From: Pseudomonadota bacterium
GTDB lineage: Bacteria > Pseudomonadota > Gammaproteobacteria > Burkholderiales > Rhodocyclaceae
Length of the DNA stretch: 64,000 nucleotides
Direction of reading: 5' to 3'
Assembly (NCBI GenBank): GCA_018241725.1
Contig: JAFEDI010000124.1
Coordinates: forward strand, 124,001-188,000
Shown: positions 4,389-62,047 of the stretch, one piece after another
Layout of the letters: every line of letters begins with the position of its first letter
How positions within the stretch are numbered: the stretch's first letter is position 1
Notes under the pieces: model-generated
The model's input: the letters and a program-made list of their open reading frames with translations, nothing else
Told to the model about the DNA's origin: nothing
The model's database searches: none
Translations under genes and position numbers: made by a program

Positions 4389-5264
<876 letters not shown>

Positions 5265-55228: not shown

Positions 55229-55257
55229 TTGATGCATCGCAACAGGGACGCTATCCT
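55229..55257 (+). promoter_or_regulatory. Possible sigma-70 promoter of the acetate kinase fusion gene
   Basis: TTGATG (55229-55234), a 17-bp spacer, and TATCCT (55252-55257), with a predicted start near 55264. If real, translation must begin downstream, at GTG 55304 and not at the in-frame TTG or ATG at 55229/55232. Confidence 0.45.
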
Positions 55258-55303
55258 GTCTCTATCCTTTCATTCGGCTCCACTCTTTCAAGCGAGACAC
55301 AGC

Positions 55304-57613
55304 GTGAGCGACATCGATCTGAAACGCTTCTTCCTGGAACAGGTGCGCCTGTTCGAGCATTTCCCGGCCGACAAGGTCGAGGAGATCGTTGCCAGCGGGC
55401 GGCTGGCCACCTACGAAGGCAACGAGGCCATCCTGGAAACCGGCGACGAGGGCCAGTACCTCGGCGTGCTGATCACCGGCCACGCGGAGATCTCGGTCAC
55501 CGACAACACCGGCACCCGCACAGTGCTGACCCAACTCGGGCCGGGCGAGGTGTTCGGTGTGATGTCCACCCTGACCGGCGACCGCGTCACCGCCGACGTG
55601 ATCGCCGGCAACCGCTGCTACGTGTTGCTGATCCCGCTGGAGACCTTCAACACCCACATCCTCACCAACCCGAAGGCCATCGGCTACCTGTCGCGGATGC
55701 TCCTCGAACGCATGCGCAGCATGTCGCTGGACATCGTGTCGGCCAAGTCCTCCGCCGCGTCGGTGCTGTCACTGCACTCCGCACGCCCGGGCAAGGTAAT
55801 CGCCCTCAACGTGGGCCTCAGCCAGATCCACTTCGGCATTTACGACACCCGCGACCTCGGCTCCGACGTCCACGGCATCATCGACAACACCGACGAGTAC
55901 GTGTCGCGCATCAGCGTGATGGTCGGCCCGCAGGTCAAGACCATCACCCGCGACCCCTTCCCCCTGTCCGAGCTGTTCCCGGTCATGCAGGACGCCGCCC
56001 GCCAACTCGGCGACGCCTTCGCCTTCGAACTCGATGAAATCTGCGCCGTCGGCCACCGGGTCGTCCATGGCGGCAACCGCTTCGCCGCTGCGGCCGTCAT
56101 CACGCCGACGGTCATCGCCGACATCGAGGCGCTGTCGGTCTTTGCCCCGCTGCACAACCCGGTGAACGTGGCGGGCATCCGCGAAGCCCTCAAACAGCTG
56201 CCCGACGTGCCCCACGTGGCGGTCTTCGACACCGCCTTCCATCAGACCCTGCCGCCCTATGCCTACCTGTACGGTCTGCCCTACGACCTCTACAAGCAGG
56301 ACGGCATCCGCCGCTACGGCTTCCACGGCACTTCCCACCGCTACGTGTCGCTGAAGTCGGCCGAGGTGCTGAAGCGCCCCCTGGGCGAACTGGAGATCGT
56401 GTCCTGCCACCTGGGCATCGGCGCCTCCGTGTGTGCCATCGACCACGGCCGCTCGGTAGACACCTCGATGGGGATGACGCCCACCGATGGGCTGATCATG
56501 CCCAGCCGTTCCGGCAGCATCGACCCGGCGGTCATGGTGCACCTGATGGAACGCCAACAGATGTCGCCGGAGGCCCTGTCCACGCTGATCAACACCGAGA
56601 GCGGCCTGAAGGGCATCTCCGGCATCTCCAGCAACATCCACGACATCGAAACCGCCGCCGGCAACGGCCACCACCGCGCACTGCTGGCCCACAAGGCCTT
56701 CTGCTACCAGATCCGCAAGAACATCGGCGCCTATATCGCGGCGATGGGCGGCATCGACGTGCTGGCCTTCACCGGCGACATCGGCGAGACCAGCGCCGCG
56801 GTGCGCAGCCTGGCCTGCCAGGGCCTCGCCTACATGGGCATCAAGCTCGACGAAGAAAAGAACCGCAACCTCGGCAAGGTGGACGACTTCGCAATCATCT
56901 CCACCGACGACTCGCCGGTGACCATCCTCGTCATCAACAATGACGACGAGCGCCTGGTGGCCTGGGAAACCCTGCGCGCCATCGAAAGGGACGAACTGAT
57001 CCGCGAGGCCAAGGCCGAGGAAAAGGCGCCGATGCCGATCCCCGTCGAGATCTCGGCCCACCACGTGCACCTTTCGCAGGCCGACGTCGAAAAACTGTTC
57101 GGCCCCGGCCACCAGCTCACGCCGGAACACGAACTGTCCCAGCCAGGCCAGTTCGCCTGCGCCGAGAAGGTGCACCTGGTCGGCCCCAAGGGGCGCATCG
57201 CCAACGTGCGCGTGCTCGGCCCGACCCGCAAGGAAACCCAGGTCGAAATTGCGATGACCGAGCAGTTCAAGGTCGGCCTGCAGCCGCCGATCCGCGAATC
57301 CGGCGACCTCGCCAACACGCCGGGCATCACCCTCGAAGGCCCGGCCGGCAGCACCACCATCGAACGCGGCGTGATCTGCGCCCAGCGTCACATCCACATG
57401 ACGCCGGAAGACGCGCGCCGCCTGCGGGTGCGCGACAAGTACGTGGTGCGCGTGCGGGTCGAGGGCGAGCGCGAGCTGATCTTCGGCGACGTGATCGTGC
57501 GGGTCAGCCCGAGCTACCGGCTGGCAATGCACATCGACACCGACGAGGGCAACGCCGCCAACATCCGCACCGGCATGCTCGGCTACATCGAGGAAATCCA
57601 GAGCCGCCATTGA
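55304..57613 (+). CDS. Trifunctional fusion: cNMP-binding domain + acetate kinase + PduL phosphotransacylase
   Basis: A 769-residue cytoplasmic protein. Residues ~10-140 form a Crp-type cyclic nucleotide-binding fold (GEVFGVMSTLTGDRVTADVI) with no helix-turn-helix. Residues ~163-555 are acetate kinase: Arg252 (GHRVVHGG), His284 (APLHNP), Asp309 (VFDTAFHQ), His341 (GFHGTSH), His369, Arg402 and Glu495 (GDIGETS) are kept. The phosphate loop is NVGLSQIHF in place of NxGSSSLKF, and HLGNG is HLGIG. Residues ~578-769 are PduL, with metal-binding SAHHVHLS, CAQRHIHM and AMHIDTDEGNAA. Together they would convert acyl-CoA to acyl phosphate and then acid plus ATP. GTG 55304 is the likely start; ATG 55232 is possible. 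Confidence 0.88.
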   Translation: MSDIDLKRFFLEQVRLFEHFPADKVEEIVASGRLATYEGNEAILETGDEGQYLGVLITGHAEISVTDNTGTRTVLTQLGPGEVFGVMSTLTGDRVTADVIAGNRCYVLLIPLETFNTHILTNPKAIGYLSRMLLERMRSMSLDIVSAKSSAASVLSLHSARPGKVIALNVGLSQIHFGIYDTRDLGSDVHGIIDNTDEYVSRISVMVGPQVKTITRDPFPLSELFPVMQDAARQLGDAFAFELDEICAVGHRVVHGGNRFAAAAVITPTVIADIEALSVFAPLHNPVNVAGIREALKQLPDVPHVAVFDTAFHQTLPPYAYLYGLPYDLYKQDGIRRYGFHGTSHRYVSLKSAEVLKRPLGELEIVSCHLGIGASVCAIDHGRSVDTSMGMTPTDGLIMPSRSGSIDPAVMVHLMERQQMSPEALSTLINTESGLKGISGISSNIHDIETAAGNGHHRALLAHKAFCYQIRKNIGAYIAAMGGIDVLAFTGDIGETSAAVRSLACQGLAYMGIKLDEEKNRNLGKVDDFAIISTDDSPVTILVINNDDERLVAWETLRAIERDELIREAKAEEKAPMPIPVEISAHHVHLSQADVEKLFGPGHQLTPEHELSQPGQFACAEKVHLVGPKGRIANVRVLGPTRKETQVEIAMTEQFKVGLQPPIRESGDLANTPGITLEGPAGSTTIERGVICAQRHIHMTPEDARRLRVRDKYVVRVRVEGERELIFGDVIVRVSPSYRLAMHIDTDEGNAANIRTGMLGYIEEIQSRH

Positions 57614-57655
57614 GCCCCGTGGGTCGGGCTGTGCCCAGCCCGACCACCGTGAAAA

Positions 57656-57688
57656 CCAGGAAGCCCGGCATGGCCCGGCGTTTCCTGG
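57656..57688 (-). terminator. Probable terminator of the RiPP/sigma-factor operon
   Basis: On the minus strand an imperfect stem starts CCAGGAAACGCCGGGCC and closes with CGGGCTTCCTGG, followed by TTTTCAC. It lies 34 bp after the stop of the zinc-finger gene. A second hairpin without a T run (GGTCGGGCT / AGCCCGACC, 57622-57645) serves the opposite strand. Confidence 0.55.
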
Positions 57689-57721
57689 CACGCCGCGGCA
57701 GACAGCTCGAACGTCGGCGCG

Positions 57722-57901
57722 CTAATCGTTCCGTTCGAGAAAGCGCCGGGTCGCCAGGCGCAGAAAATCCATCTGCTGGCGGAAGGCCCGGCAACCACGG
57801 CAGAACAGCAGGTGCAGTCTCAGGCGCAGCCGCTCGCCATGACTGAGCGGGCGGTCCAGCGCCTCGGACATCAAATGGGTGGCGTCCTTGCAATTCATCA
57901 T
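57722..57901 (-). CDS. Small zinc-finger (zf-HC2-like) putative anti-sigma factor
   Basis: A 59-residue soluble protein. Cys4 ([19 protein letters not shown]) and the HLLFCRGC element (His-x3-Cys-x2-Cys) are the ZAS zinc-binding pattern of anti-sigma factors. It has no membrane helix, unlike most zf-HC2 anti-sigma proteins. Its ATG overlaps the sigma-factor stop in an ATGA, so it should be made in step with the sigma factor and probably binds it. Loss of zinc or binding of another metal to the Cys/His set would be a simple sensing route (inference). Confidence 0.75.
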   Translation of the reverse strand: MMNCKDATHLMSEALDRPLSHGERLRLRLHLLFCRGCRAFRQQMDFLRLATRRFLERND

Positions 57902-58485
57902 GATGCCCGGCCCTCCTCGCCGAACCAGCCGTGGCTGAGACACTGCCGCAGCGCCGCGCGGGCCCGGTGCAGGATCACATTGCAGTTATTGGCAGTAAGC
58001 GCCAGCGTGGCGCAGATCTCGTCGGTCTCGAAACCGAGGAATTCGCGCATCATGAAAACCCGCGCGGTGCGCGCCGGCAGCACCTCCAGGCAGGTCTCGA
58101 AGACCTGCCAGAACTGGCGCTGGGCCAGCGCCTCTTCCGGGTCGCCCCAGGCCTGCGGACGCCCCTGCGGGCTCCAGTGTTCGTTTTCCTTGAAGAGCTT
58201 GTCGAAGGCCTCGTCGAGTTCGCCCTCGTCATGCTCGAAGCTGGAAATCTGCACCGTGCGGCCGCGCTCCCGCAGGGTGTCGATGATCTTGTGGCGCAGG
58301 ATCGTGAAGATCCAGGTCTTCAGCGCCGAGCGCCCGGCGAAACGGTCAATGCCGAGCAATGCCGACTCGATGGCTTCCTGCACCGCGTCGTCGGCGGCTG
58401 CCTCATCGTGTAGTTGCAGGCGTGCGAATTTCAGCATCTGCGGGCGAAAGCCCGAAATGAGGTCGGCATTCCCGGAGTCGATCAT
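57898..58485 (-). CDS. ECF-type RNA polymerase sigma factor
   Basis: A 195-residue sigma-70-family factor. Region 2 is [40 protein letters not shown]; region 4 is [20 protein letters not shown] then [21 protein letters not shown] longer-than-usual linker ([20 protein letters not shown]) matches the TIGR02943-like group found beside DUF692/DUF2063 genes, such as RpoQ next to gigPABT in Cupriavidus metallidurans. It overlaps DoxX upstream and the zinc-finger gene downstream by 4 bp each. It probably drives its own operon from the promoter at 61088. Confidence 0.88.
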
Positions 58486-59036
58486 GTCTGGCGAATGGGT
58501 TGCAGGGCGGCTCTCCCGTACGGTCCGCCATGCAGCCACCGACGGATCCACGCATCCATGCTCAGCCGCCCCGGCCCAAGCAGGATCAGTGGCATGAGCA
58601 TAGCAAGGAAGAGCAGCGGCAACTTGAAATTGCCGTGGCCATCGTCGGTGATCGCATAGCCCAACCACAGCTCGCCGAACCCGGCCCACTCCGCCGGCCA
58701 ATGCACGGCAGCGATCGCCACCACCGTCAGCACTGCCAGTGCCACGCTGAAGAAGCGTGTCGCCAACCCCAGCAGCAAAGCCACGCCGCCGATCAACTCG
58801 ATCCACGTGGCGAGCTGCCAGCTGATCTCCGGCGGAACCACGTCAAAGGGAAACGGAAACTGGTCCTGGATGTCGGCGAACCAGTTGTGACCGAAAAATT
58901 TTTCCCGTCCCGAATCGAAGAACTCCCAGGCCAGCAGAGCCCGCAGGCCGAGCAGGGCAACCCACTGGCCAAAGCTATCCAGGTGGCCGAGGCCGCCATC
59001 GAGACAGGCCGATACCTGGCTGCGGATCGTATTCAT
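58482..59036 (-). CDS. DoxX family membrane protein of the RiPP operon
   Basis: A 184-residue protein with four membrane helices, starting at [20 protein letters not shown]. DoxX marks include the [20 protein letters not shown] stretch after helix 1, [20 protein letters not shown] and [20 protein letters not shown]. The protein corresponds to GigT/HvfD-position genes in related clusters, where DoxX membrane proteins accompany DUF692/DUF2063 pairs. A redox or quinone-linked role is inferred. It overlaps the DUF2063 and sigma-factor genes by 4 bp each. Confidence 0.85.
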
Positions 59037-59794
59037 GTGCGTTCTCCCAGTAAAACGCCGTGGTGGCGCAACTCGGCCAGGTTATGCCGGCCAAAATCGA
59101 TGAAAGCGGTGTCGGCCGGTCGTCCCAGCTCCGCCGCCAGGGTTTCGAAGGCGATCCGCCCGCTGCACTCGCCATCGAGCAAGCTCAACAGGCGCGCCGT
59201 AGCCGGGCTCAATGCCATGAAGCACACCGCGTCCAGCGCATTCCGATACACCGCCAGGTGAACCGGTTCGGGCTGGCGCGGCCGGAAATCCGGGCCGATG
59301 CGCTGCACCGGCCATGCGAAGGCCAGGGACAGCAGGGCCGGGTTGACCAGCGGCACGCCGTCGACCAGGTCACCATCCGGACGGTGCGGCGGCACCGCCA
59401 CCTCCATCACATCCACCGCCAGCTCGGCCCATTCATAGCGCAATAGTTCACCGAACCAACGCGGCAACCGCTGGCGGCAGGCGCCGCTGTCAAGGTAAGC
59501 CAGCAGCTCTTGCGGAATCTCGCGGAACCATGGCGTCACGCAGTCCCAGTCGCGCAGGAAGGCGCGGCAAAGGCGAGTCCACCGCGCTTCGCCCAGGGTG
59601 GCCCGCGCCACCGGAAAGCAGCGATCCAGGAAACCTCTCAGACGCTGGAACACGAGCCTCTCATACACCGCCATGCGCGCGGCGGGCACGCCTGCCGGAC
59701 AGGCGGCGCGCCGGCCATGACGCAGACGCCGGCCGAAGGCAGCCTGCCAGGCCTGCAGCGTCCCTGGCACAGCCAGATCAGCGGGCCGGCTCAT
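59033..59794 (-). CDS. hvfC: HvfC/BufC-like DUF2063 protein (RiPP maturation partner)
   Basis: A 253-residue protein. The N-terminal DUF2063 domain shows [35 protein letters not shown] and [13 protein letters not shown]-terminal domain follows ([43 protein letters not shown]). In the Haemophilus HvfABC and methanobactin-like MbnBC systems, this partner binds the precursor and holds it for the DUF692 oxygenase. The gene overlaps hvfB upstream and doxX downstream by 4 bp each. ATG 59794 lies in an ATGA with the hvfB stop. Confidence 0.85.
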
Positions 59795-60636
59795 GCCACC
59801 ACCTCGGCCGTGCGCCGCGCGCAAGCCTGGCGGGCGACGATCTGCGCAACCTCAGCCCCCAGCGCGGCCAGGGGCGGAAAGTTGAAATCCCGCTCCAGGC
59901 AGGTCGGCAAGGGTCCAGTACGTGCATAGGCGGCATCGAGCAGCGCCCACACCGGATCGATCACATCCGCGCCGTGGGTGTCGATGCGCAGCCCGTCCGG
60001 CTCCACGTCATGCCCCGCCACATGAATGTAGCAACAGCGCTCCAGCGGCAGCCCGTGCAGAAAGTCGTAAGGGTCGAAGCCAAAGTTGGCCGCATTGACG
60101 AGAATGTTGTTCACGTCCAGATGCAGGCAGCAGTCTGCCTCCTCCACCACGGCGCGGATGAATTCCGCCTCGCTCATTTCGGCACCCGGAGGGGCGACGT
60201 AGTAGGAGGCATTCTCTATGCCGATGCGCATGCCCAGCATGTCCTGGGCCTGACGGATGCGCGCGGCAACCCAGCGCACCGCGTCACCGGTACAGGGCAG
60301 CGGGAACAGGTCATAGAGCTGGCCGGCATCGCCGCACCAGGACAGATGCTCGGTGTACAGACCGATGCCGTGCTCAAGCATGAAAGCACGGATGCGCGCC
60401 AGCAGCTCCATGTCGAGGGGCTGGGGGCCGCCGAGATTCAGCGACAGTCCATGGCAGACGAAGGGATAACGCTCGGTGAAGGCACGCAACTGGCGGGCCG
60501 AACGGCCGCCCATGGCGGCCCAGTTTTCAGGCGCCAGCTCGAAGAAATTCACCGCGGCGGGCACGCCGGCCTCCAGCTCGGCCAGCAGTTCGCGGCGAAA
60601 GCCGAGCCCGGCCCCGTGGGGAATGCATCCTGACAT
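59791..60636 (-). CDS. hvfB: HvfB/BufB/MbnB-like DUF692 iron enzyme (RiPP cysteine modification)
   Basis: A 281-residue TIM-barrel protein of the DUF692 family. Metal-ligand and active-site marks: GAGLGFRRELLAELEA, FFELAPENWAAMGG, HGLSLNLGG, YTEHLSWCGD, GIENASYYV, HLDVNNILVNAANFGF, CYIHVAGH, IDTHGADV and CLERDFNFPP. The family uses two or three irons and O2 to rework cysteines of small peptides, giving oxazolone/thioamide groups in MbnB and HvfB. The start at 60636 has GGGAGAG 6 bases upstream. The precursor gene lies 60 bp upstream, beyond a strong hairpin. Confidence 0.9.
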   Translation of the reverse strand: MSGCIPHGAGLGFRRELLAELEAGVPAAVNFFELAPENWAAMGGRSARQLRAFTERYPFVCHGLSLNLGGPQPLDMELLARIRAFMLEHGIGLYTEHLSWCGDAGQLYDLFPLPCTGDAVRWVAARIRQAQDMLGMRIGIENASYYVAPPGAEMSEAEFIRAVVEEADCCLHLDVNNILVNAANFGFDPYDFLHGLPLERCCYIHVAGHDVEPDGLRIDTHGADVIDPVWALLDAAYARTGPLPTCLERDFNFPPLAALGAEVAQIVARQACARRTAEVVA

Positions 60637-60654
60637 GTCGAACTCTCCCTTGAG

Positions 60655-60685
60655 GGCCGGGGAAGGGCGTCTGCCCGCCCCGGCC
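60655..60685 (-). promoter_or_regulatory. Strong hairpin between precursor gene and modification genes
   Basis: GGCCGGGG / CCCCGGCC is an 8-bp perfect stem with an inner GGGC / GCCC stem. There is no T run. It lies 12 bp after the precursor stop and 19 bp before the hvfB start. It is placed to stabilise or attenuate, so that precursor outnumbers enzyme. Confidence 0.6.
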
Positions 60686-60696
60686 ATTCCGCCCGA

Positions 60697-61008
60697 TTAC
60701 TTCTTCTTGTCGGCACCGCAGCTGCCGTCAGCCTTCTTGTCGGCGCCACAGCTGCCATCGGCTTTCTTGTCCATCGCCATCTTGTCGTTCATTTTCGCTT
60801 CGGCCTTGTGCGCGGACTTCCTCGCGGCCTTTTTGTCGGCACCGCATTTGCCTTCGCCGCACTTGCCGTCCTGCATCTTGGTGTCGGCCTGGGCCAGCTG
60901 GTAGCCGGCAGCCAGCGGCTTGGCGGCAAAGGGGTTGTCGGCGGCATGGGCGGCGCCGAAGGCGACGGAAGCGGCGAGAGCAGCGGTGAGAGCGGTAGCC
61001 TTGTTCAT
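60697..61008 (-). CDS. hvfA: HvfA/bufferin-like RiPP precursor, secreted Cys-Gly repeat peptide
   Basis: A 103-residue precursor. Residues 1-22 form a signal peptide (NKATALTAALAASVAFGAAHA). After a short neutral stretch the core has four cysteines, all in Cys-Gly: QDGKCGEGKCGADKK (Cys50, Cys55), and ADGSCGADKKADGSCGADKK (Cys87, Cys97), separated by a Lys/Ala/Met-rich segment. The GKCGEGKCG unit is the HvfA motif, whose cysteines are changed by HvfB/HvfC to copper-binding groups. The last two units are a 30-bp tandem repeat with Ser in place of Lys. AGGAGA lies 6 bases before ATG 61008. Confidence 0.88.
   Translation of the reverse strand: MNKATALTAALAASVAFGAAHAADNPFAAKPLAAGYQLAQADTKMQDGKCGEGKCGADKKAARKSAHKAEAKMNDKMAMDKKADGSCGADKKADGSCGADKKK
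60704..60763 (-). repeat. Two 30-bp tandem repeats in the RiPP precursor gene
   Basis: Two direct repeats (60704-60733 and 60734-60763) each code for a ten-residue unit of the ADGSCGADKK type. The copies differ at a few, mostly synonymous, positions, so the duplication is not very recent and the peptide sequence has been kept by selection. Confidence 0.8.
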
Positions 61009-61087
61009 TGCGAATCTCCTAGAGGGGTTGAAAGCAGACCTGCCGGACGCCAACGTGGCGCCCCGAATTATCAGGTACTGGCGATTG

Positions 61088-61113
61088 GACGGAGATGCCC
61101 CCCGCGTTCTTAC
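61088..61113 (-). promoter_or_regulatory. Candidate ECF sigma promoter of the RiPP operon
   Basis: On the minus strand, GTAAGA, a 16-bp spacer, then CGTC. This resembles ECF promoters of the GTAACC-N16-CGAA/CGTC kind. It lies about 80 bp before the hvfA start codon. Confidence 0.45.
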
Positions 61114-61135
61114 ACGCCTGGAGAAAATAATTTGG

Positions 61136-61163
61136 CGCAAAAAAACGCCGGCATGCGCCGGCG
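61136..61163 (-). terminator. Rho-independent terminator after the AhpD-like gene
   Basis: Minus strand: CGCCGGC / GCCGGCG with a 4-base loop followed by T7. It separates the AhpD-like gene from the RiPP operon, which runs in the same direction. Confidence 0.8.
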
Positions 61164-61216
61164 GGTAAAGGGCCGGACTAGCGGCCGAGAGGGAAAGGAA
61201 AAACGGTGTCGGGCGC

Positions 61217-61798
61217 TCAGCTCTTCGGCAGGCGGCCCATGAGGTAGAACTCGTCGTTGGGGCGCAGGGAGATCAGGTTGGCGAGCCGGTTGCTCATCGC
61301 GAAGAAGGCGGTGATCGCACCGATGTCCCAGATCGCCTCGTCGTCGAAACCGTGATCATTGAGCGCCGCGATGTCGGCATCGCCGACGCTGGCCGAGTCG
61401 AGGGACAGCTTCAGTGCGAAGTCGAGCATGGCCTGCTGGCGCGGGCTGATCTCGGCCTTGCGGTAGTTGGTGGCCAGCTGGTCGGCGACGCGCGGGCTCT
61501 TGGCCCGGATGCGCAGGATCGCCCCGTGGGCGACCACACAGTACAGGCACTGGTTGGCGCCGGAGGTGGCGACGACGATCATCTCCCGCTCGGCCTTGCT
61601 GAGGCCGGCATCCTTCTCCATCAGCGCGTCGTGGTAGGCGAAGAAGGCGCGGAATTCCTCCGGGCGGTGGGCCAGCGCAAGGAACACATTGGGCACGAAA
61701 CCGGCCTTCTCCTGCACGGCCAGGATGCGGGCACGCACATCCTCGGGCAGGTCGGCGAGTTCGGGAACGGGGTAGCGGCTGATCGGCAGATCGGACAT
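61217..61798 (-). CDS. AhpD-like / carboxymuconolactone decarboxylase family peroxidase-related protein
   Basis: A 193-residue all-helical protein. The catalytic region is SGANQCLYCVVAHGAILR, with the CxxC-x3-H of alkylhydroperoxidase AhpD, after LSKAEREMIVVATS. The start (ISRYPVPELADLPEDVRARI) and FVPNVFLALAHRPEEFRAFF match the peroxidase-related TIGR01926 group. It probably reduces peroxides with thiols; the electron donor is unknown. It lies upstream of the RiPP operon in the same direction but ends at its own terminator. Confidence 0.9.
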   Translation of the reverse strand: MSDLPISRYPVPELADLPEDVRARILAVQEKAGFVPNVFLALAHRPEEFRAFFAYHDALMEKDAGLSKAEREMIVVATSGANQCLYCVVAHGAILRIRAKSPRVADQLATNYRKAEISPRQQAMLDFALKLSLDSASVGDADIAALNDHGFDDEAIWDIGAITAFFAMSNRLANLISLRPNDEFYLMGRLPKS

Positions 61799-62047
61799 GG
61801 CTTGTCTCCTGGAATCTTGTTATGGCTTAGCGCGGGGTGCGCGGAGGCAGTGTAGCCGGCCCGCCGCAGCCCACGGCGCGGGCCGGCTCAGATCGTCGGA
61901 AAGTACAAACGAATTGGCGGAAAGCGCATGACGGCGGCCACCGGGCCAATACCGGCGGTATGCACAGAACTGCTGCCTGCAGCACTTATCGCCACCGCCC
62001 CACTCCCCTAAGATCAGCCCGACATCATCGAAACGAGGAACACGGCC

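Follow-up and report, generated by a model that had tools for sequence, protein, structure and literature searches.

A predicted captophorin operon of Zoogloea with its own extracytoplasmic function sigma factor and a zinc-binding anti-sigma protein

The operon and its products

The window, a stretch of 64,000 nucleotides (positions 124,001 to 188,000 of contig JAFEDI010000124.1, assembly GCA_018241725.1), belongs to the genome of a Zoogloea species. It contains six minus-strand genes (61008-57722) encoding an HvfA-type peptide precursor, HvfB, HvfC, HvfX, an extracytoplasmic function (ECF) sigma factor and a zinc-binding anti-sigma (ZAS) protein (Table 1). We regard them as one operon, probably run by a closed loop of the sigma factor and its anti-sigma protein. 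An initial annotation, made from the DNA letters alone, had described a modified-peptide operon with its own ECF sigma factor at this place, and both the layout and the NCBIfam models uphold it, with the six families scoring above their cut-offs save for the full HvfA equivalog. The 4-bp ATGA overlaps that it reported among the genes after the precursor are found at all four junctions (hvfB/hvfC, hvfC/hvfX, hvfX/sigma and sigma/anti-sigma). HvfB, HvfC and HvfX reach 387.9, 243.4 and 143 on NF003818, NF050145 and NF050144 (cut-offs 360, 142 and 80); the sigma factor and the ZAS protein reach 259.9 and 80.2 on TIGR02943 and NF052368 (cut-offs 162.2 and 50).

HvfA has a signal-like start, recognised by eye, and contains NPFAAKPLAAGYQLAQAD, a stretch of which versions recur among the relatives. 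Its cysteines lie at residues 50, 55, 87 and 97, as annotated, in four Cys-Gly units (DGKCG, EGKCG and two DGSCG). The precursor passes the KCGExKCG domain model NF050137 (24.7, cut-off 19.5) and scores 26.3 on the full equivalog NF050188, far below the cut-off of 95. Membership in the bufferin 1 (DUF2282) group was rejected: the precursor has no Pfam match and the BufB-type model NF050167 gives 244.7, below its cut-off of 310. HvfB carries the residues FRR and ERDF, which are tied to Lys-Cys substrates in the captophorin paper (PMC13097082), and which occur together in 29/35 hvf-type HvfB rows and 0/9 Buf-type rows. In the same paper FonBC modified DGKCG fully, tolerated Ala, Arg or Thr replacing the Lys before Cys and, among the double changes tried at the position after Cys, tolerated only Ala. 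By analogy, modification is very likely at Cys50 and Cys55 of HvfA and probable at Cys87 and Cys97, which follow Ser. The modification now assigned to HvfA is 5-thiooxazole, in place of oxazolone/thioamide. Each 5-thiooxazole lowers the mass by 4 Da (8 Da for two in the captophorin paper), which would come to 16 Da for all four cysteines of HvfA and to 8 Da for the KCG units alone.

Judged by the precursor units, the HvfB residues and the HvfC and HvfX matches, this is a captophorin (HvfA/oxazolin-type) operon for a ribosomally synthesised and post-translationally modified peptide. Like fontiphorin and other captophorins, the window has a Lys-Cys multinuclear non-haem iron-dependent oxidase (MNIO) with FRR and ERDF, a DUF2063 partner and EGKCG/DGKCG units; unlike them, two of its four units are DGSCG, and Cys-Ala or Cys-Ser occurs in many precursors of Zoogloea. 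Among 77 cysteines that follow the NPF motif in 16 Zoogloea precursors, the window's included, the next residue is Gly in 43 cases, Ala in 29 and Ser in 5, which makes these precursors a natural series for substrate tests. In the Zoogloea relatives L037-L043 most cysteines precede Ala or Ser rather than Gly, and NCBIfam gave no match for the precursor of L039 at E 0.001.

The relatives used here are loci fetched with the sigma protein, of which the best 80 of 398 were kept; among named records, Zoogloea sp. LCSB751 has the closest sigma factor (95%). A ZAS-type protein is encoded at the end of the sigma gene in 78/80 (L105 and L110 lack one by this pattern), and its first Cys is at position 4 in 76 of the 78. 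The small anti-sigma protein that the initial annotation placed last in the operon holds up well. Its sole Pfam domain is zf-HC2, and its C4, H30, C34 and C37 (H30-x3-C34-x2-C37) have the same residue numbers as in MseR, the Neisseria meningitidis protein in which Cys34 is essential, Cys4 and Cys37 are important and His30 is dispensable (PMC2893595). The window has the order of a Neisseria-type sigmaE/MseR unit, an ECF sigma gene followed by that of a short ZAS protein.

Table 1. Features of the operon and of its control region (window coordinates).
Feature	Position	Strand	Basis
Intrinsic terminator, CGCCGGC-GCAT-GCCGGCG-T7	61146..61163	-	Terminator scan and direct reading of the sequence
AT-rich UP-like element AAATTATTTT, upstream of the -35	61124..61133	-	Sequence; AT count over 32 promoters
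ECF sigma promoter: -35 TGTAAGAACG, 13-nt spacer, -10 CGTCCAAT	61084..61114	-	Comparison with relatives and with the Neisseria sigmaE consensus
hvfA, precursor, 103 aa	60697..61008	-	NCBIfam; signal-like start by eye; DGKCG, EGKCG, DGSCG, DGSCG
GC-rich hairpin in the hvfA-hvfB gap, no T-run	60655..60685	-	Folding against shuffles; weak
hvfB, MNIO (DUF692) enzyme, 281 aa	59791..60636	-	NCBIfam; Lys-Cys type residues FRR and ERDF
hvfC, DUF2063/RRE (RiPP recognition element) partner (PME1), 253 aa	59033..59794	-	NCBIfam; related in sequence to gonococcal structure 3DEE
hvfX, DoxX-type membrane protein, 184 aa	58482..59036	-	NCBIfam
ECF sigma factor, TIGR02943 family, 195 aa	57898..58485	-	NCBIfam
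ZAS anti-sigma protein, 59 aa, C4/H30/C34/C37	57722..57901	-	NCBIfam and residue positions

A dedicated promoter that accompanies the sigma factor

The putative promoter in front of hvfA (TGTAAGAACG-N13-CGTCCAAT) matches the Neisseria sigmaE consensus at 13/17 positions, with a spacer of 13. Genes of the hvf type occur in 36/80 relatives, on the strand of the sigma gene in 33 and divergently in 3, and a script found the precursor in 31 of the 36 (L036, L051, L059, L079 and L081 were left out). Together with the window this gives 32 upstream regions. The strict pattern lies ahead of hvfA in 29/32, with close variants in L058, L078 and L088; this count is descriptive, because the pattern was written after the sequences had been seen. 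In these 32 promoters the AT content is 80-81% over the block from -20 to -11 ahead of the -35, against 26-42% elsewhere from -40 to -1, and the Neisseria sigmaE promoter likewise has an AT-rich UP sequence (PMC2893595).

With a matrix built from 25 relatives, from which the window and its three closest kin were excluded, the site in the window scores 25.0 bits, where the next best place in the 64 kb has 10.0 and 20 random Markov controls have a mean of 12.4 and a maximum of 20.4; the promoter that the initial annotation had put near 61088 is therefore well placed. The matrix from all 29 sites exceeds 20 bits in 32/52 of the remaining sigma loci, against 0/52 reversed sequences, and a reversed-sequence control of 474 kb has 0 sites above 18 bits. 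These matches fall in 5/8 loci with hvf genes and in 27/44 without them; the operons at these loci include bufferin-type, thioredoxin-DsbD, pyridine-nucleotide reductase and other ones. Since the site is found before different operons at sigma loci, it accompanies the sigma factor and not hvfA. The self-regulation proposed by the initial annotation is thus well supported at the level of sequence, by a conserved and dedicated promoter.

Early patterns in which the -10 contained CGTC were discarded. They gave mostly chance matches (38 in the genome against 146 reversed) because most relatives have CGAC, and they were replaced by aligned hvfA upstream regions. A sigma-70 scan of 57500-61900 returned 0 sites, which says little because just 0.3 were expected by chance.

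The regulon is apparently very small. Within the genome the strict form occurs at the hvf promoter alone, and no other site equals it. A wider pattern has 3 matches against 5 in the control, and with up to 2 mismatches there are 2 against 7 at spacer 13 and 4 against 7 at spacer 12. As no other site in the genome matches as well, the sigma factor looks private to the hvf operon. Across 23 Zoogloea genomes the strict pattern has 22 matches, spread over 18 of them, and its reversed form has 1; of the 22, 15 precede hvf operons, 5 a secreted thioredoxin gene and 2 lie elsewhere. In one genome (G409; L196, reverse strand) a strict site stands directly before a frame that resembles glyceraldehyde-3-phosphate dehydrogenase (named by eye).

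A known design in a new genus

The operon arrangement is of a known kind, because the Neisseria sigmaE/MseR operon has it, and this autoregulated operon, not Cupriavidus gig-RpoQ, is the closest system. In N. meningitidis, NMB2140-2145 is autoregulated and restrained by MseR (PMC2893595). Both units have a DoxX gene, an ECF sigma gene and the gene of a ZAS protein (Cys4/34/37). Also alike are three hypothetical genes of Neisseria, for their homologues in Haemophilus are periplasmic, COG3220 (DUF692) and DUF2063 proteins (PMC7907618). The form of the promoter with its AT-rich UP element and the final position of sigma and anti-sigma are also alike. They differ in that the Neisseria DoxX gene comes first and msrAB is a second target, whereas hvfX is fourth in the window and no second target was found; a methionine sulfoxide reductase target is a feature of the regulon and is not required for the operon type. 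The product of the gonococcal ngo cluster, gonophorin, carries 5-thiooxazole and binds Cu, and the gonococcal ecf operon is raised upon exposure to neutrophils (PMC11257400).

Haemophilus influenzae hvfABCX (oxazolin) has the same set of peptide enzymes as the window. A related sigma factor with a ZAS protein, RpoE2-HrsE, called ECF group 13, controls a DoxX-COG3220-DUF2063 cluster there, whose induction by hypochlorite (HOCl) needs RpoE2 (PMC7907618). This pair is encoded elsewhere and also drives msrAB and other genes, whereas that of the window lies inside the operon.

The comparison with gig-RpoQ that the initial annotation drew fares poorly. Cupriavidus gigPABT is also a four-gene operon headed by a small periplasmic protein and lies beside an ECF sigma gene; gigABT we take to encode DUF692, DUF2063 and DoxX proteins. 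According to the parts of the reports available, rpoQ-rsqA is divergent from gigPABT, the anti-sigma factor is predicted to be membrane-bound and RpoQ-dependent transcription of gig is not shown. In the window the sigma gene is co-directional and ATGA-linked, and is followed by the gene of a 59-aa zf-HC2 protein. The gig-RpoQ type was rejected on this difference of architecture.

The design being known from Neisseria, the new part is comparative and concerns HvfX and thioredoxin-DsbD. In the parts available of a 2025 survey (PMC12452194), sigma genes are named for Buf1 clusters and none is described in the oxazolin section, and its main text lacks the words thioredoxin, DsbD, AhpC and peroxiredoxin. 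Among the papers listed by the literature searches, which left subscription papers mostly outside, none reports the alternation described below or a Zoogloea member. The window extends the Neisseria design to Zoogloea, a wastewater genus, and since its regulon is seemingly one promoter, it offers a clean model for what an anti-sigma protein of the MseR type senses.

The sigma/ZAS pair and its changing partners

The type of operon attached to the sigma factor changes repeatedly on the sigma tree. In this tree (81 rows, quick method) the hvf label needs 7 changes, at least 4 of which are forced by well-supported branches. The sigma factors of Zoogloea fall into two clades, the first with hvf operons and the second made of L068 (Z. 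ramigera), L091 and L103; genes for a DUF2282 protein and BufB lie beside the sigma gene of L068 and a BufB-like gene beside that of L091, and the contig of L103 begins at the sigma gene. In L049, L072, L077 and L097 the pair comes after DUF3047, glycosyltransferase, DUF2064, pyridine-nucleotide reductase (one VTT-fused) or HD_5 genes. The wider role of the pair therefore extends past peptides.

In 7/23 Zoogloea genomes there is a match to HvfX (E up to 1e-5), and 10/23 encode a secreted thioredoxin (E up to 1e-15) and, downstream of it, a DsbD-type membrane protein; the two never occur together (0/23). A sigma-type site stands upstream of the thioredoxin gene in 10/10 of these genomes, at 19.9 to 32.7 bits. 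The Fisher value for HvfX against thioredoxin, computed over the 15/23 genomes that could be paired with a named hvf locus, is 0.007, with the HvfX remnant of G405 counted as absent and kinship ignored. A tree built from HvfB, HvfC and sigma requires 4 changes for either trait, and the swap therefore happened more than once. An analysis of independent pairs, in 15 Zoogloea plus L054, L058 and L104 (the thioredoxin status of these three being taken from the locus only), found 4 pairs, with a mean of 2.8 going in opposite directions and none in the same, a sample that cannot reach 0.05. At the locus level the Burkholderiaceae/Comamonadaceae group has thioredoxin-DsbD without HvfX in L058, and HvfX without thioredoxin in L054 and L104. 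Thioredoxin and DsbD are also present, with no HvfX in the locus, in L083, L084 and L090.

This alternation suggests, without proving it, that the role of HvfX is to provide the peptide with thiol or electron chemistry. A broader proposal, which we advance only tentatively and would not bet on, is that the sigma/ZAS pair acts as a private controller that can move between varied thiooxazole-peptide operons and tends to pair the peptide with a periplasmic source of thiols or electrons (HvfX, thioredoxin-DsbD or a peroxiredoxin-like protein), HvfX and thioredoxin-DsbD being non-homologous replacements that keep thiooxazole thiols or copper reduced. Several observations weigh against replacement. 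First, L081, outside Zoogloea, has both HvfX and thioredoxin. Second, L033/G405 has lost most of hvfX without having thioredoxin. Third, 6/23 Zoogloea genomes have neither, and the hvfX of G094 has an in-frame TAG. If the proposal is true, the peptide would act in an oxidant response as a buffer of redox state and copper that can be recharged, and a role open to testing would fall to the DoxX partner. The alternation under the same type of promoter provides a direct genetic test of DoxX function in a very common class of peptides.

The hvfX remnant of L033 lies at about 4789-5001; like the TAG of G094, it may reflect decay or an assembly error. Thioredoxin genes are found at sigma loci in 10/80 relatives, and DsbD and AhpC/TSA genes in some. 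An AhpC/TSA (peroxiredoxin-like) gene adjoins hvfB in L058, L081 and L083 (by Pfam) and in L084 and L090 (look-alikes by eye), and it sits between hvfA and hvfB wherever the locus includes hvfA.

How the loop might work and what might trigger it

We consider it probable that this is a captophorin operon of Zoogloea under a closed sigma/anti-sigma loop, with thiol-directed oxidant stress as its likeliest trigger. To judge from their families, HvfB and HvfC would convert cysteines of the exported HvfA to Cu-binding 5-thiooxazoles, and HvfX would serve the peptide at the membrane. The sigma factor would recognise the promoter before hvfA and, by the pattern searches, none other in the genome. The promoter is conserved; sigma binding and transcription from it, which we infer, would let it alone drive the peptide, the enzymes, the sigma factor and lastly the ZAS protein, which would hold the sigma factor in check. 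A low basal transcript would keep the pair present; once the zinc-thiol site of the anti-sigma protein (C4, C34, C37) is oxidised or its metal lost, the freed sigma factor would amplify its own operon until fresh anti-sigma protein closes the loop. The oxidant stress could take the form of reactive chlorine, of disulfide stress or of copper that works by oxidising thiols, and it is favoured over copper or gold in their own right. The better precedents, Neisseria NMB2140-2145 and the RpoE2-dependent, HOCl-induced cluster of Haemophilus, make an oxidant no less likely than a metal as the inducer. Copper or gold as the inducing stress, which the initial annotation proposed, finds no support in the sequence, although nothing there refutes it.

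A number of points count against this reading. 1) H2O2, diamide, singlet oxygen and SDS-EDTA left the rpoE and msrAB transcripts of N. meningitidis unchanged (PMC2893595), which makes a simple RsrA-like redox switch doubtful. 2) Other operons of this peptide class are reported to be induced by excess copper and gold. 3) Two identifications among the precedents depend on domain content, by which the gonococcal ngo cluster is probably the Neisseria ecf operon and the Haemophilus DoxX cluster is inferred to be hvf. 4) msrAB was not seen as a second target: the one MsrB gene found is on a contig (C95) without a pattern site, and MsrA was not searched.

The second of these points leads to the first rival, a true metal switch, in which an excess of Cu(I), Au or Zn in periplasm or cytoplasm would displace the zinc of the ZAS protein and free the sigma factor, and the peptide would only buffer that metal. 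Zinc-thiol sites can in principle react with soft metals. Captophorins bind Cu, their operons are reported to respond to oxidative stress as well as to the two metals, and gig is reported to be induced by Cu and Au. Flavin reductases encoded next to the sigma genes of L097 and L108 also score on the mercuric reductase model, below its cut-off. Yet a Pfam scan of 9 window proteins and 20 proteins of relatives, a small part of all neighbours, found no copper-resistance or metal-transport family, and what recurs at sigma loci are thioredoxin, DsbD and AhpC/TSA proteins. The response of the Haemophilus homologue to HOCl and the different architecture of gig-RpoQ argue in the same direction, and we judge a metal switch unlikely, though a serious contender.

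A second rival is that the peptide is mainly a sacrificial pool of secreted thiols that absorbs oxidants such as HOCl and is recharged via HvfX or thioredoxin-DsbD, rather than mainly a metallophore. Promoters of the same type precede periplasmic thiol-relay genes, an AhpC/TSA-like gene adjoins hvfB in some relatives, and HOCl is the inducer reported in Haemophilus. Nevertheless, HvfB still has the residues linked to the modification of cysteines, FonBC accepts small changes near Cys and the known products bind Cu, so that we find this improbable. Finally, it is very hard to believe that the sigma factor is a passenger that acts on genes elsewhere while a housekeeping promoter drives the operon: cotranscription alone is no proof of autoregulation, but a conserved site lies directly before hvfA, nothing else in the genome matches as well, and the site accompanies the sigma gene across different operons.

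Flanking and intergenic features

Directly upstream of the operon a gene on the same strand (61217-61798) encodes an AhpD-like, peroxidase-related enzyme (TIGR01926). Between the two lies an intrinsic terminator with a perfect 7-bp stem and seven T. The terminator scan of the region gave 9 sites against 2.9 expected, and this one has the longest G-C stem before seven T; it should insulate the operon from the AhpD-like gene.

For hvfB the best start is the ATG at 60636, behind a GGGAGAG ribosome site (by eye); there is an in-frame ATG at 60687 too. The hairpin in the hvfA-hvfB gap has a z of -2.28 on 64 nt (6/200 shuffles as good) but of -0.89 on 57 nt. Among relatives with spacers of at least 40 nt, z is below -1.5 in 9/20 rows, and 8/28 rows have a shorter spacer or none; an alignment of 10 spacers looked too poor for counting pairs. 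The hairpin is a possible, weak candidate for an element of mRNA stability or stoichiometry.

Downstream, the neighbouring gene is convergent. It is a single 794-aa frame on the plus strand (55229-57613) that joins a cyclic-nucleotide-binding domain, an acetate kinase and a phosphate propanoyltransferase (PTAC) domain in an unusual-looking three-part fusion. A perfect 9-bp hairpin without a T-run (57622-57645, by eye) lies between the two convergent genes.

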